Assembly (NCBI GenBank): GCA_030550025.1
Contig: JAUQQC010000005.1
Coordinates: forward strand, 1 to 64,000
Direction of reading: 5' to 3'
DNA from: Acidobacteriota bacterium
Lineage (GTDB): Bacteria; Acidobacteriota; Blastocatellia; HR10
Length of the DNA: 64,000 nt
A program made the translations under genes and the position numbers. The notes beneath the pieces were generated by a model, which did no database searches, was not told where the DNA came from, and saw only the letters and a list, made by a program, of their open reading frames with translations. Below are positions 40,796-48,446 of this stretch, in pieces. How positions within the stretch are numbered: the first letter of the stretch is position 1; every line of letters starts with the position of its first letter.

Positions 40796-41045
40796 ATCTC
40801 CCTCCCCGTTTCCAAAATTCGACCGCCGGGGACCACACCCCAGCTGGTTCCAGCGTGCTCCTCGGATGAACCGCCGTTCTCGCGCTGCGCAATATTATTC
40901 GCGCCCGGCGATATCGGTCAAGAGGCGCTCCCCGCACGGGAGACGAAGACCTCGCACGTTGTAACATCCGGCTCTCCTCACGCGTATCTGTGAGGCGAAA
41001 GCCAAAGAAAAGGCTTCCGTCATGGGGGGCCGAGGAGGAGAGGTC

Positions 41046-41528
41046 ATGCGCGAGGTCATCGAACTTCAGGTCAATGGCATCCGACACCGCTTGGAAGTCG
41101 AGCCGAACCGTCGCCTGCTCGACGTATTGCGTGAGGACTTGGATCTCACGGGCACGAAATACGGCTGCGGCGAAGGACAATGCGGCGCGTGCACGGTCCT
41201 CGTTGAAGGGCGAGCCATACGTTCGTGTATCACCCCCGTGCATCTGGTCGCCGGCCGCCCGATCACGACGATCGAAGGCGTGGCTCACGGCGGACGCCTG
41301 CATCCGCTTCAGGAGGCATTCTTGGAGGTCGACGCCTTACAGTGCGGCTATTGCACGCCAGGCATGATCATGTCTGGCCTGGCGCTTTTGACCGCGAATC
41401 CCGATCCGAGCGAGGACGAGATCATTCGCTTCATGAATGGGAACATCTGTCGCTGCGGGACCTATGGGCGCATCGTTCGCGCCATTCAAAGGGCCGCGCA
41501 AAAGATGCGAAAGGAGAATCGGCGATGA
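41046..41528 (+). CDS. [2Fe-2S] subunit of a molybdenum hydroxylase (xanthine dehydrogenase family)
   Basis: The 160-residue protein carries both iron-sulfur centres of the family: the plant-type cluster C-x4-C-x2-C (GCGEGQCGACTVL, about residues 41-53) and the alpha-helical cluster CGYC ... CRCGTY. It transfers electrons from the molybdenum subunit. ATG 41046 has GGAGGAGAGG upstream. The stop overlaps the ATG of the large subunit, so the pair is translationally coupled. No FAD subunit gene adjoins, as in isoquinoline or aldehyde oxidoreductases of the two-subunit type. Confidence 0.92.
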   Translation: MREVIELQVNGIRHRLEVEPNRRLLDVLREDLDLTGTKYGCGEGQCGACTVLVEGRAIRSCITPVHLVAGRPITTIEGVAHGGRLHPLQEAFLEVDALQCGYCTPGMIMSGLALLTANPDPSEDEIIRFMNGNICRCGTYGRIVRAIQRAAQKMRKENRR

Positions 41529-43792
41529 GAGGCGAGATCTTCGGAGAACTTCTGAATCCAGCTCTGGAACCCGAACGCTACGAACTTTTCGCGACTTCCC
41601 TTCCGATTGCTCCGACCAGCCATGACCCGGGCAGTGTGGGAGAGAACGGCTTGACGGCGTTGGCCGAGGAGCCGCTTCGGGAGATCGCTCCACTGCTCAC
41701 GCGCCGCCAGTTTTGTCAGGCGTTGGGAGCCGGACTGCTCGTCCTTCTGTTCCGGGACGTTCGCGCCCTGCAGGAGTCCGGTGGCGGACGTCGTACTGGA
41801 TCCCCGTCGTTGCCACAGGAGATCAGCGCGTGGCTTCACATCAGCCGGGAAGGTCTGGTGACGGTCTATACGGGCAAGGTTGAAGTCGGGCAGAACATTC
41901 GAACGTCACTCACGCAGGTCGTCGCCGAAGAGCTGCGCGTGCCCATAGAGCGCATTCGCCTGGTCATGGGGGATACAGACTTGACGCCTTTCGACGCGGG
42001 GACGTTCGGCAGCCGAACGACGCCGACAATGGCCGCACACTTGCGCCGCGTTGCGGCCGCGACGCGCGAACTACTCCTTGATCTGGCGGCCGAACAGTGG
42101 CAAGTTGGTCGCGCGACGGTGGAGATCGCCGACGGCAAGGTCCGGCATCTAGCAAGCGGTCGATCGCAGGACATCGGAGAGCTGACGCGCGGTCAGAAGC
42201 TCTCGCGCCCTCTCCCGGACACGGTGGCGCCCACCCCTCCGGAACAGTGGCGCATCCTCGGGGCTTCCGTCCCCAAGGTGAACGGTCGAGCGTTCGTCAC
42301 TGGCGAACATCGCTATACCTCTGACCTGAAGCTCCCCGGCATGCTCTACGGGAAGGTCCTGCGGCCTCCTGCCTTCGGCGCAACGCTCGTCTCCGTGGAC
42401 ACGCGCGAGGCGGAATCCATGCCCGGCGTCCTCGTCGTCCGCGAGGGCGATTTCGTAGGAGTCGCCGCGCCGAGCACCGAACAAGCGGCGCGGGCGCTCG
42501 CCGCGATTCGCGCCGAGTGGAAGACGACGCCACAACCGTCGAGCCGCGAGATCTTCGAGTACTTGAAGAAGAATCCGATCGAGGCTCAGGGCTGGGAGGG
42601 CCGTTCGCAACATCTTGTCGGCTCACTCGAGGAGGGGTGGCATCTCGCCGAGAAGCGCTTTCAGCAAACGTACACAGTCGCTTATATCGCACATGCCCCA
42701 TTGGAGCCGCGTGCGGCTGTGGCCGAATGGAAAGACGGGCGCCTCACGGTGTGGACGGGGACGCAACGCCCCTTCGGCGTGCGCAGTGAGCTGGCGCGGG
42801 CATTCGGTCTCCCCGAGGATCGCGTGCGCGTGATCGTGCCCGACACGGGGTCGGGATACGGTGGCAAACACACGGGCGACGCGGCCCTTGAAGCGGCGCG
42901 CTTGGCCAAAGCGGCTGGCCGCCCCGTCAAAGTCGTTTGGACGCGCGAAGAGGAATTCACCTGGGCGTACTTCCGCCCGGCCGGCGTGATCGAAGTCCGA
43001 AGCGGTGTGAAGGCCGATGGAACGATCACGGCCTGGGAGTTCCACAATTACAATTCCGGCGCTGCTGCCATTCGCACGCCCTACGCGATCCCCAATCAGC
43101 ACATCGAATTCCACCCGACGCGCTCGCCGCTGCGCCAGGGCTCCTATCGCGCGCTCGCGGCCACAGCCAATCACTTCGCGCGCGAGACGGCCATGGACGA
43201 GTTGGCGCACCTGGTCGGAATGGACCCGCTGGCGTTCCGATTGAAGAACCTCGCGGACGAGCGCCTGCGCGCCGTGCTCGAAGCCGCCGCGAGCCGCTTC
43301 GGATGGGGAAAGGCGAAACCAGCTCCCGATCGCGGCGTGGGTCTCGCGGCCGGATTCGAGAAAGGTGGCTACGTGGCCACCTGCGCGGAGATCGCTGTGG
43401 ATCGCACAAGCGGTGAAGTGAAGGCCGTGCGCGTCGTCACCGCCTTCGAGTGCGGCGCCATCCTCAATCCCGATCACCTCAAGAATCAAATCGAAGGTGC
43501 GATCGTCATGGGGCTGGGCGGCGCTCTCTTTGAGTCCATCGAGTTCGAGAACGGAAAGATCCTCAATCCACGCTTCTCGCGCTATCGCGTGCCCCGCTTC
43601 AGCGATCTCCCGCACATCGAAGTCGTGCTTTTAGACCGCCGGGACTTGCCGTCGGCGGGAGCCGGAGAGACCCCGATCGTGGCCATCGCGCCAGCAATCG
43701 GGAACGCGATCTTTCACGCCACGGGCCTACGGCTTCGATCGCTTCCGCTGGCACCCCACGGACTGAAAGGCGAAATCAAACCTCAATCGTAA
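41525..43792 (+). CDS. Molybdopterin-binding subunit of xanthine dehydrogenase-family enzyme
   Basis: The 755-residue large subunit resembles IorB-type molybdenum hydroxylases. It has a Tat-like motif TRRQFCQALGAGLLVLLF (residues 59-76) that is internal, after a 58-residue extension. GKVEVGQNIRTSL and GSYRALAATANHFARE are family blocks; VPDTGSGYGGKHTGDAA is the Mo-cofactor region, and the C-terminal catalytic Glu lies near GAGETPIVA. With the FeS subunit it should hydroxylate an aldehyde or N-heterocycle, probably in the periplasm. The substrate is unknown. Confidence 0.88.
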   Translation: MRGEIFGELLNPALEPERYELFATSLPIAPTSHDPGSVGENGLTALAEEPLREIAPLLTRRQFCQALGAGLLVLLFRDVRALQESGGGRRTGSPSLPQEISAWLHISREGLVTVYTGKVEVGQNIRTSLTQVVAEELRVPIERIRLVMGDTDLTPFDAGTFGSRTTPTMAAHLRRVAAATRELLLDLAAEQWQVGRATVEIADGKVRHLASGRSQDIGELTRGQKLSRPLPDTVAPTPPEQWRILGASVPKVNGRAFVTGEHRYTSDLKLPGMLYGKVLRPPAFGATLVSVDTREAESMPGVLVVREGDFVGVAAPSTEQAARALAAIRAEWKTTPQPSSREIFEYLKKNPIEAQGWEGRSQHLVGSLEEGWHLAEKRFQQTYTVAYIAHAPLEPRAAVAEWKDGRLTVWTGTQRPFGVRSELARAFGLPEDRVRVIVPDTGSGYGGKHTGDAALEAARLAKAAGRPVKVVWTREEEFTWAYFRPAGVIEVRSGVKADGTITAWEFHNYNSGAAAIRTPYAIPNQHIEFHPTRSPLRQGSYRALAATANHFARETAMDELAHLVGMDPLAFRLKNLADERLRAVLEAAASRFGWGKAKPAPDRGVGLAAGFEKGGYVATCAEIAVDRTSGEVKAVRVVTAFECGAILNPDHLKNQIEGAIVMGLGGALFESIEFENGKILNPRFSRYRVPRFSDLPHIEVVLLDRRDLPSAGAGETPIVAIAPAIGNAIFHATGLRLRSLPLAPHGLKGEIKPQS

Positions 43793-43826
43793 GGCTGGAG
43801 ATCTCTGCCTCAAGAGGAGGATGACG

Positions 43827-44642
43827 ATGAGAGGACAACGGCTTGCTCGGCTCATGACCTTCGTGGCCTTGGGCCTTGGAACCACCGCGTACCATCCCGC
43901 TCAAGACTGGGCGCGACGGAGATTGGAAGCGTCGCCGCGCCACCAGGAGTGGGTCTCCATTACGTATGATCGGCGAACGGTTCATGCTTTCGTCGTCTAT
44001 CCCGAAGCCAAAACCAAGACGCCTGCGGTCATCGTGATCCATGAAAACCGCGGGCTCACCGATTGGGTGCGAAGTGTGGCTGATCAACTGGCCGAAGCGG
44101 GCGTGATCGCTATCGCTCCGGATCTGCTCTCGGGCATGGCGCCCGGCGGCGGACGCACGAGCGACTTCTCTTCGGAAGACGCCGCGCGCGAGGCGATCTC
44201 GAAGTTGCCGCCGGAGCAGGTCATGGCCGATCTGAACGCCGTGGCCGATTACGCGGCGCGGTTGCCCGCGGGTAACGGGAAAGTTGCCGTCGCCGGATTC
44301 TGTTGGGGTGGGAGTCAAGCCTTTCGCTTCGCCACCCATCGCCCGAATCTGGCCGCCGCCTTCGTCTTCTACGGCACGGGGCCGCGGGATGCAGAGAGCC
44401 TGGCGCGCATTCGCTGTCCCGTTTATGGCTTCTACGGCGGCAACGATGCGCGCGTGACGGCGACCGTACCGGAGACCGCCGACGTGATGAAACGCCTCGG
44501 GAAGACGTTCGAGCCTATCACGTACGAGGGGGCTGGACACGGATTCATGCGCACGGGAGAAGAGCCCCATCCCACCGAGGCCAATCGCAAGGCGCGCGAG
44601 CAGGCGTGGGCGCGATGGAAGGAGTTGTTGAAGAAGTTGTGA
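43827..44642 (+). CDS. Dienelactone hydrolase family protein, exported
   Basis: The 271-residue alpha/beta hydrolase has the dienelactone hydrolase nucleophile Cys in VAVAGFCWGGSQ (near 165), an acid in YGGNDARV and His in EGAGHGFM. IVIHENRGLTDWV is the usual oxyanion block. The N-terminal 25 residues are weakly hydrophobic and may be a signal peptide. ATG 43827 is placed 6 nt after GGAGG; ATG 43821 is also in frame. It follows the molybdenum hydroxylase genes by 34 nt and may share their transcript. Confidence 0.87.
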   Translation: MRGQRLARLMTFVALGLGTTAYHPAQDWARRRLEASPRHQEWVSITYDRRTVHAFVVYPEAKTKTPAVIVIHENRGLTDWVRSVADQLAEAGVIAIAPDLLSGMAPGGGRTSDFSSEDAAREAISKLPPEQVMADLNAVADYAARLPAGNGKVAVAGFCWGGSQAFRFATHRPNLAAAFVFYGTGPRDAESLARIRCPVYGFYGGNDARVTATVPETADVMKRLGKTFEPITYEGAGHGFMRTGEEPHPTEANRKAREQAWARWKELLKKL

Positions 44643-44797: not shown

Positions 44798-44818
44798 GCC
44801 GACCGAACCGGTCTGGGC
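44798..44818 (-). promoter_or_regulatory. Candidate SECIS hairpin for the C-terminal Sec75
   Basis: Just after the final stop, GCC-CA-GACCG (44818-44809) pairs with CGGTC-GGC (44805-44798), 8 perfect pairs with a 2-nt bulge, leaving an apical loop GTT. The loop begins 19 nt after the Sec75 UGA but only 10 nt after the terminal UGA. Loop start G, bulge and distance all fit bacterial SECIS rules as I know them. Confidence 0.7.
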
Positions 44819-45052
44819 TCACACCCCTCAGGTGCCGCCAAACCCGATCGTCACCCGATCACCTTCCACGATCACGGGCACGCTGCGCTTGCCCCCGGAG
44901 TACTGGAGCATTTGTTGAAACGCCGATTCCTCCTGTTGCACATTGAAGTATCGGACGTCGTATCCGCGCTGGCCGTAATCCTCACGGGCGGCCGTGGTGT
45001 AAGGTCAGGTGTCCTTCCCGAAGATGAGCACGACGCGCTTCTTCTCCTCCAT
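44819..45052 (-). CDS. Glutaredoxin-like selenoprotein of the UXX-star type, two Sec codons
   Basis: Reading through two TGA codons gives a 77-residue glutaredoxin-fold protein. Residues 6-20 are RVVLIFGKDT-U16-PYTT, matching the glutaredoxin CPYT site with Sec for Cys (TGA at 45007-45005). GGKRSVPVIVEGDRVTIGFG near the end contains the cis-Pro of the fold. It finishes GGT-U75-GV and a real stop (TGA at 44821-44819), so U75 is third from the end. From memory this is the layout of the UXX-star (seleno)protein families. ATG 45052 has AGGAGG 7 nt upstream. Hairpins follow both Sec codons. It lies 81 nt after carB. Function is presumably thiol or selenol redox; partner unknown. Confidence 0.85.
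44971..44993 (-). promoter_or_regulatory. Candidate SECIS hairpin for Sec16
   Basis: After the first UGA, CCGT (44987-44984) pairs with ACGG (44976-44973) around the 7-nt loop GAGGATT. Outer GG/CC pairs (44993-44992 with 44972-44971) close it with a 4-nt bulge. The loop begins 21 nt after the UGA and starts with G. Other folds compete: CACGG/CCGTG and a 5-bp GGCCG/CGGCC stem. Confidence 0.5.
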
Positions 45053-45133
45053 CGCCATTCCTCCTCAAGATCAAAGTCGGACGGAGTGGCCACCTGGCCA
45101 TCCCATAGCAAGGCGCGCGCCCTTTGATCGAGC

Positions 45134-48100
45134 CTACGGCAACGCCGCGCGATGATTGAGCTGACGAAGCTGCTCCTGATACTCCTGCAAGCACCCGATC
45201 TCCAATTGCTCCTTCTGCAAAGCCTCGATGGCTTCGACAGCAGCGCGGGCTCCGGTGAGCGTCGTGATGCATGGGATGCGATATTGAACAGCGGCGCGGC
45301 GGATCGAACGATCATCATAGAACGACGCGCGCCCAAGCGGCGTGTTGATGATGAGATGGATGTGACGGCTCTTGATGAGATCCACGACGTTCGGACGCCC
45401 CTCGTTGACCTTGTAGACGAATCGCGCGGGCAGGCCAGCTTGCTGCAGCGCCTCGCGCGTGCCGCGCGTGGCGATCAGCTCGAATCCCAGATCGCGGAGG
45501 CGACGCGCGATGGGGATCACATTCGCCTTGTCGTTGTCGTTGACGCTGAGGAAGGCCGTGCCGTGGCGCGGCAGATGCGTTCCGGCCCCATATTGCGCCT
45601 TGAGGAAAGCGCTGCCGAACGTCGTCGCTACTCCCATGACTTCTCCCGTCGAGCGCATCTCCGGCCCGAGCACCGGATCCACACCCGGGAAGCGCGCGAA
45701 CGGGAAGACCGGCGTCTTCACGTAAAACCGATCGACCTTCAGCTCGTCGGGCAGATGAAACTCATCGAGCGTATGCCCGACCATGAGCAAGGCGGCGATC
45801 TTCGCCAGCGGAACGCCCGTCGCCTTGCTCACGAACGGCACGGTGCGCGACGCGCGGGGGTTCACCTCGAGCACGTACACGATTCCATCCTTGATCGCAT
45901 ATTGGACGTTCATTAAACCGACGACGCCGAGGGCTTCGGCCAATCGCCGCGTGTAGCGGCGAATCACGTCCAGTTGCTCGGCAGGGATCATGTACGGTGG
46001 GAGCACGCACGAGCTATCGCCGGAATGAATCCCCGCTTCCTCGATGTGCTCCTGGATGCCGGCGATCACGCATCGTGCGCCATCGGCGAGCGCGTCTACA
46101 TCCACCTCGAACGCATCTTCCAAGAAGCGATCGATCAAGACGGGATGCGTGGGCGAGGCTTCGACGGCCTGACGCATGTACCGTTCCAAGGCCCGCTCGT
46201 CGTAGACGATGACCATAGCGCGGCCGCCCAGGACATAGCTCGGTCGAACCAAAACGGGGTATCCGATGCGCGCGGCCACGCGTTTGGCTTCCTCGATGCT
46301 CGTCGCCGTCCCACTCTCGGGTTGCGGGATACCCAACTCCCGCAGGAGATTTCCGAATCGCTCCCGATCCTCAGCCAAGTCTATGGACTCGGGAGAGGTG
46401 CCGATGATGCGCACGCCCGCGCGCCAGAGCTTCATCGCGAGATTGAGCGGCGTCTGCCCGCCAAATTGCACGATGACGCCCTCGGGTTGCTCCAGCTCGT
46501 AAATGTTCATCACGTCCTCGAACGTGAGCGGCTCGAAGTACAACCGATCGGACGTGTCGTAATCGGTCGAGACCGTCTCGGGATTGCAATTCACCATGAT
46601 CGTCTCATACCCGTCTTCTCGAAGCGCGAAGGCGGCGTGACAGCAACAGTAGTCGAACTCGATCCCCTGCCCGATGCGATTGGGACCGCTCCCCAAGATC
46701 ATGATCTTGCGTCGGGTGGTCGGCTGAGCCTCATCTTCGTCCTCGTAGGTCGAGTAGAGATACGGCGTGTACGATTCGAATTCCGCCGCGCACGTATCCA
46801 CGCGTTTGAAGACCGGACGCACGCCGAGTTCCAGGCGCCGCCGGCGCACAGCTTCATCGCTCGTCCCCCAGAGATCGGCCAACCGCGCATCCGAGAACCC
46901 CATCCGTTTGGCTCGCCGCAGGTGTTCGCGCGTCACCGTCTGGAGCGTCATCGTCCGCAAGCGCCTCTGTTCCTCCCCGATCTCGCGCAGTTGCGCCAGG
47001 AACCATGGATCAACCTTCGTCAGTTCGTGGACCTGTTCGATACTCCAACCGCGATCCAAGGCGTAGCGGATGTAATTGAGGCGCTCGGGCGTGGGGATCG
47101 CCAGACGTCGTCGCAGTTCCTCCTCCGGCAGGTCATGATCGAAGCGGAACAGACGCCCCGTCTCCAGCGAACGAATCCCCTTCAGCAACGCTTCCTTGAA
47201 CGTCCGCCCGATGGCCATGACTTCGCCGACCGATTTCATCTGCGTCGTGAGCGTCGGATCGGCCGCCGGGAACTTCTCGAAGGCCCAGCGCGGGATCTTC
47301 ACCACGACGTAATCAATCGTCGGCTCGAAGCTCGCCCACGTCTTGCGCGTGATGTCATTGGGGATCTCATCGAGCGTGTAGCCGACGGCGAGCTTGGCGG
47401 CGATCTTCGCGATCGGGAATCCCGTCGCTTTCGAAGCGAGCGCCGAGGAGCGGGAGACGCGCGGGTTCATCTCGATGACGCGCAGCTCTCCGGTCCGCGG
47501 ATTGACAGCGAATTGGATATTTGAGCCGCCGGTCTCCACCCCGACCTTTCGGATCACGGCGATGGCCGCATCCCGCATGCGCTGATACTCGCGATCGGTG
47601 AGCGTCTGTGCCGGAGCGACCGTGATCGAATCCCCCGTGTGAATCCCCATCGGATCGAAGTTCTCGATTGAGCAGATGATGACGACGTTATCGGCGAGAT
47701 CGCGCATGACCTCCAACTCGTATTCCTTCCACCCGATGATGGATTCCTCCACGAGGACTTCGCGGATGGGAGAGGCCTCCAGCCCTCGCTCGACGATCTC
47801 TCGGAATTCCTCATCGTTGTAGGCGATCCCCCCTCCCGTTCCTCCGAGCGTGAAGCTCGGACGAATGACGATTGGGTACTCCAGATCGGCGGCGATGGCC
47901 CACGCTTCCTCGAGCGAATACGCGAACCCGGCGCGCGGCATCTGCAGCCCGATCTCTTCCATCGCCTGCTTGAAGAGCCGCCGGTCCTCGGCGATGCGAA
48001 TCGCCTGCAAGTTCGCTCCAATCAATCGCACGCCGTAGGCATCCAAAATCCCCTGCTCGGCGAGCGCGACGGCCAGATTCAATCCCACCTGCCCACCGAC

Positions 48101-48367
48101 AGTCGGTAGCAGCGCATCGGGACGCTCGCGCTCGATGATCTTGGCGAGGACTTCGACCGTCAGTGGCTCGACGTACGTGCGATCGGCGAATTCCGGATCG
48201 GTCATGATCGTCGCCGGATTCGAGTTCACGAGGATGACCGTGTATCCTTCGCTGCGCAGCGCCTTGCAGGCTTGCGTCCCCGAGTAATCGAACTCGCACG
48301 CCTGTCCGATGACGATCGGGCCCGATCCGATGACCAGGATCTTCTCGATGTCCGTCCGCTTCGGCAT
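45134..48367 (-). CDS. carB: Carbamoyl-phosphate synthase large chain
   Basis: The 1077-residue enzyme makes carbamoyl phosphate for pyrimidine and arginine synthesis. Both ATP-grasp halves are present, each starting with a matching block: [20 protein letters not shown] and [40 protein letters not shown] and [20 protein letters not shown] are the paired metal-binding segments. The C-terminal MGS-like allosteric domain is complete. ATG 48367 fits the family start ([10 protein letters not shown]). carA is not adjacent. The selenoprotein gene follows downstream on the same strand. Confidence 0.97.
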
Positions 48368-48446
48368 CGCCCCGATACGAAAATCGAAAGTATGGCGCAT
48401 CCTCGCGCAAAAGGGCAAGACGCTCGCCGCGTCGAATCCGAACCGG

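Follow-up and report, generated by a model that had tools for sequence, protein, structure and literature searches.

A gene on the minus strand of the 64,000-nucleotide window, the whole stretch of Acidobacteriota DNA analysed here, very probably encodes a genuine member of UXX-star family 1 with two selenocysteine (Sec) residues, an assignment made from sequence comparison and based on the reading frame, the NCBIfam match, the homologues and a low dN/dS ratio. The gene occupies positions 44819-45052, and its predicted product has 77 residues (MEEKKRVVLIFGKDTUPYTTAAREDYGQRGYDVRYFNVQQEESAFQQMLQYSGGKRSVPVIVEGDRVTIGFGGTUGV), followed by UGA. An AGGAGG ribosome binding site (45060-45065, minus strand) lies 7 nt before the ATG at 45052, while a second in-frame ATG at 45058 is an unlikely start because it is only 1 nt from the AGGAGG and hence too close. 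The frame contains three in-frame UGA codons, all on the minus strand: codon 16 (45005-45007), which is predicted to specify the catalytic Sec in a T-U-P-Y-T motif, codon 75 (44828-44830), predicted to specify a C-terminal Sec in U-G-V-stop, and codon 78 (44819-44821), nine bases after UGA75. Codon 78 is a genuine stop, since homologues have UGA, UAG or UAA at this position, and protein conservation ends there. The coordinates, strand, codon number, both Sec codons with their motifs, the ribosome binding site with its spacing and the longest UGA-free run (codons 17-74, 58 codons) had all been given in the preliminary description and proved exact on rereading of the window. Its claim that a standard gene caller would find nothing here holds for callers without selenocysteine models, which would split this two-Sec gene of 77 codons, now confirmed at the sequence level, but not for the NCBI annotation library, which includes UXX-star family 1.

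The whole read-through frame matches the equivalog model NF041114.2, 'UXX-star selenoprotein family 1', with 118.4 bits (E = 1.2e-34, cut-off 72), and reaches 105 bits against the same cut-off of 72 with X at both UGA sites. The broader UXX-star model NF041212.1 is also passed (97 bits versus a cut-off of 66), so that the UXX-star name given in the preliminary description is correct, both scores being well above the curated NCBIfam cut-offs. The two family traits, a Sec at the glutaredoxin catalytic position (UGA16) and a C-terminal Sec-x-x-stop (UGA75-G-V-UGA), are both present. That such a gene would be hard to explain by chance, as had been argued, is borne out by the E value, by the absence of matches to the codon 16-25 pattern, which is itself derived from the family, in 100 shuffles of the window, and by the phylum sample, in which the family was found above the cut-off in 43 of 396 genomes, with two TGAs in frame in 38.

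The best 30 of these 43 phylum homologues, the window gene among them, were read fully and combined with 17 Cys16 forms taken from further genomes, which include several named Deltaproteobacteria, to give a set of 47 homologues. The additional contig scan gave Cys16 forms only, because its search pattern included the Cys codon; these forms are a contrast set, and the Sec:Cys ratio in the following counts is not a frequency. Of the 47 proteins, 26 have Sec and 21 have Cys at residue 16, where Cys is the only replacement, whilst at residue 75 there are 45 with Sec, one with Cys (L071) and one with Ser (L074). Sec75 is retained in 19 of the 21 Cys16 proteins, and the combination of Sec16 with Cys75 was found in none of the 47. 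The final two residues are followed by UGA in 32 genes, UAG in nine and UAA in five. L071 (2505-2735) has Cys at both Sec columns. L074 (6007-6228) ends in GGTSGVURGP, with Ser at the second column and a UGA three codons on, and its C terminus has possibly diverged. The tests named in the preliminary description thus support the selenoprotein interpretation: homologues span both UGA sites, and Cys/Sec exchange is seen repeatedly in column 16 and in a single protein in column 75.

A short frame with two in-frame stops in a draft genome could also be a decayed glutaredoxin pseudogene or the product of sequencing errors creating TGAs. However, the copy in an independent genome of the same genus keeps both UGAs despite 21 differences at third positions and 5 elsewhere, with 18 synonymous versus 7 non-synonymous changed codons and a dN/dS of about 0.10. 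As the TGAs recur in an independent genome under purifying selection, they are not read errors. In addition, two TGAs are common to 38 genomes and column 16 exchanges Sec for Cys only; with the TGAs conserved in independent assemblies, a pseudogene or sequencing error is refuted and retains a negligible probability. The conserved frame with its UGA codons could also be ordinary if UGA had been reassigned to Trp or Gly throughout the genome. Against this, 28 of the 44 long open stretches in the window, some of which are not genes, end in UGA, the alternative at column 16 among the homologues is Cys and never Trp or Gly, and the genome encodes the full Sec machinery. Together these refute a reassignment, to which we give practically no weight.

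The preliminary description covered neither the Sec machinery nor SECIS hairpins, both of which are added here. In the same genome (3.17 Mb, 98.7% complete), a tRNA-Sec was detected at C7:40447 (75.9 bits, gathering threshold 47), together with SelB (374 bits), SelA (584 bits) and SelD (362 bits), i.e. the combination of selC, selA, selB and selD that serves as the criterion for bacterial selenoprotein genes. SelD (L049, G000:C23:106146-107066, minus strand) is a selenoprotein too, with an in-frame UGA in HGAG-U-ACKL. SelB and Sec-tRNA would decode UGA16 and UGA75 with one SECIS hairpin each, their loops about 19 nt downstream, the first hairpin being part of the coding sequence and the second of the 3' untranslated region.

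The predicted SECIS for Sec16 (44971-44993, minus strand; GGCCG.CC-GUGA-GG-AUUA-CGGCC, in full form GGCCGCCC-GUGA-GGAUUACGGCC) has its loop at +19 and a free energy of -8.6 kcal/mol. Published limits for bacterial SECIS (bSECIS) elements are a loop of 3-9 nt with a G in the first two positions, an upper stem of 4-16 bp, a distance of 16-37 nt after the UGA and a minimum free energy of at most -7.5 (PMC13188914). The hairpin falls within these limits, though only 2 bp lie directly under the GUGA loop, followed by an internal loop. The element is best seen in synonymous codon choice. The Ala22 codon is GCC in all 26 Sec16 genes, and the Arg23 codon is CGT in 25 of 26 Sec16 genes versus 2 of 19 Cys16 genes (Fisher p 2.6e-9) and versus 9 of the 104 Arg codons elsewhere in these Sec16 genes (Fisher p 3e-18), both p values overstating the evidence as the genomes are related. 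Nor is CGT present at Arg23 in the Cys16 genes L018 and L022, which belong to the same sample of the phylum, or in L078 and L079, which come from named Acidobacteria. Since this synonymous constraint is limited to genes with UGA at residue 16, it points to an RNA element at codons 22-23 and marks a coding-region hairpin that is predicted to serve UGA16 as its SECIS, with the loop 19 nt downstream. A bSECIS filter applied after codon 16 separates the two groups weakly (20 of 26 Sec genes versus 9 of 21 Cys genes, p 0.03). By RNA folding, the local free energy of the hairpins of the window gene does not differ significantly from that of shuffled sequences (z-scores near zero), and the comparative tests are informative instead. 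An Rfam scan gave no match to a SECIS family, and a match to the snoRNA sR19 at 44961-45012 (17 bits versus 45) is due to chance.

The predicted SECIS for Sec75 (44798-44818, minus strand; GCC-CA-GACCG-GUU-CGGUC-GGC) lies beyond the stop codon and agrees with the bSECIS limits, with a GUU loop at +19 and -8.8 kcal/mol. The 3' hairpins, which MAFFT did not align correctly, were located gene by gene, each in its own register. A hairpin follows UGA75 in 30 of 30 phylum homologues; its stem varies greatly in sequence, its loop lies 13-24 nt downstream of the codon, and 25 of the 30 are within the published limits. In a combined shuffle test, the 30 C-terminal hairpins gave a p of 7e-20, a value that ignores relatedness, whereas the hairpin of the window gene, taken by itself, does not differ significantly from shuffled sequences (p 0.145). 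This individual weakness, together with the observation that recoding of a UGA in E. coli is achieved by only about 40% of ribosomes (PMC4513850), would fit a scenario in which most translation stops at UGA75 and full-length protein with both Sec residues is a minor product. We consider this improbable, as Sec75 is better conserved than Sec16, is followed by G-V-stop and is accompanied by hairpins at a fixed distance. With recoding of UGA75 as the preferred reading, UGA78 would be left to release factor 2, and it is presumably read as a stop because the loop of the second hairpin, 10 nt away, is too close; we infer a spacing rule that separates UGA75 from UGA78.

An AlphaFold2 model built from 17 sequences (pLDDT 92.8) contains the glutaredoxin strands and helices without the last helix, and its Foldseek neighbours are glutaredoxins and NrdH. 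The product is hence predicted with confidence to be a minimal glutaredoxin fold lacking that helix. The U/C-P and T19 site and Pro59 are invariant, with T19 at the position of the resolving Cys in CxxC glutaredoxins. As the protein is also free of cysteine, the chain offers no candidate for the resolving group other than Sec75. We therefore hypothesize, with somewhat better than even confidence, that Sec75 is the redox partner of Sec16, which it would resolve in a diselenide or selenenylsulfide cycle. Alternatively, both selenols could jointly bind a soft metal or metalloid. The family might then function chiefly as a selenol metal or metalloid ligand rather than as an oxidoreductase, with Sec75 in the main role and the glutaredoxin site in a secondary one, which would agree with the retention of Sec75 in nearly all Cys16 proteins, with the lack of any Sec16-Cys75 form and with the suggestion that the Sec of UXX-star proteins binds metal or an unknown substrate (PMC13188914). 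The invariance of the catalytic site, Pro59 and the glutaredoxin fold argues against this, no metal-resistance gene was recognised among the few recurrent neighbours inspected at 20 loci, and we regard a ligand function as rather unlikely, if worth considering. It is a tentative idea that the function of the family centres on Sec75 and that the two UGA codons nine bases apart are separated purely by their distance to one 3'-UTR hairpin; if true, the gene would let SECIS spacing be examined in a minimal natural setting.

The upstream neighbour is carB, coding for the carbamoyl-phosphate synthase large chain (45134-48418, minus strand), which is found next to the gene in 3 of 3 genomes examined in the taxonomic family; carB shares the strand of the gene and terminates at 45134, and the gene thus lies behind carB as originally described. 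No conserved operon was found across 20 neighbourhoods, which show no conservation beyond close relatives, and genomic context therefore gives no function. Neighbours recurring at up to 5 of the 20 loci, named by eye, are thioesterase-, metallo-beta-lactamase- and peptide-deformylase-like genes. A dienelactone hydrolase-like gene (43821-44642) is convergent with the selenoprotein gene, and the same-genus genome (L052) has a gene of comparable length (278 aa), equally far away and likewise on the opposite strand. An adjoining pair on the plus strand (41022-43792) resembles a molybdenum hydroxylase with a 2Fe-2S and a large subunit; both of these assignments in the window were made by eye. In viral contigs, a protein scan found no family member, and a short DNA pattern was too unspecific to use.

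UXX-star family 1 genes provide a clean system to study the role of a C-terminal Sec-x-x-stop, and also the separation of UGA-Sec from UGA-stop at nine bases. Among known systems, glutaredoxin 3 and NrdH (TIGR02181, PDB 1fov and 1h75) have the same fold and the same catalytic Cys/Sec position as the window protein, which differs from them in lacking the CxxC motif and the last helix and in having an extra C-terminal Sec. A classical dithiol glutaredoxin (Grx3) is ruled out by UPYT in place of CPYC and by a score of 38.3 bits, far under the TIGR02181 cut-off of 90; the scores against classical glutaredoxin models in general lie well short of their cut-offs. UXX-star families 2 and 3 (NF041211, NF047338) and the HUGP/GUXX-star fusion NF045501 have a glutaredoxin-like core and the C-terminal motif in common with the window protein, but it scores under their cut-offs (56 versus 100, 52 versus 97 and 57 versus 325 bits, respectively). 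A 2026 review, whose source for family 2 and the fusion is Haft and Tolstoy 2025, lists NF041114 as the two-Sec 'distant Grx-like protein 1' family (PMC13188914). Residues 8-77 of the window protein align to positions 1-70 of the 70 in this model, with both Sec columns and the U-G-V-stop ending present, and there is no essential difference other than that the member comes from another species. UXX-star family 1 is already catalogued, and the window gene is an additional member.
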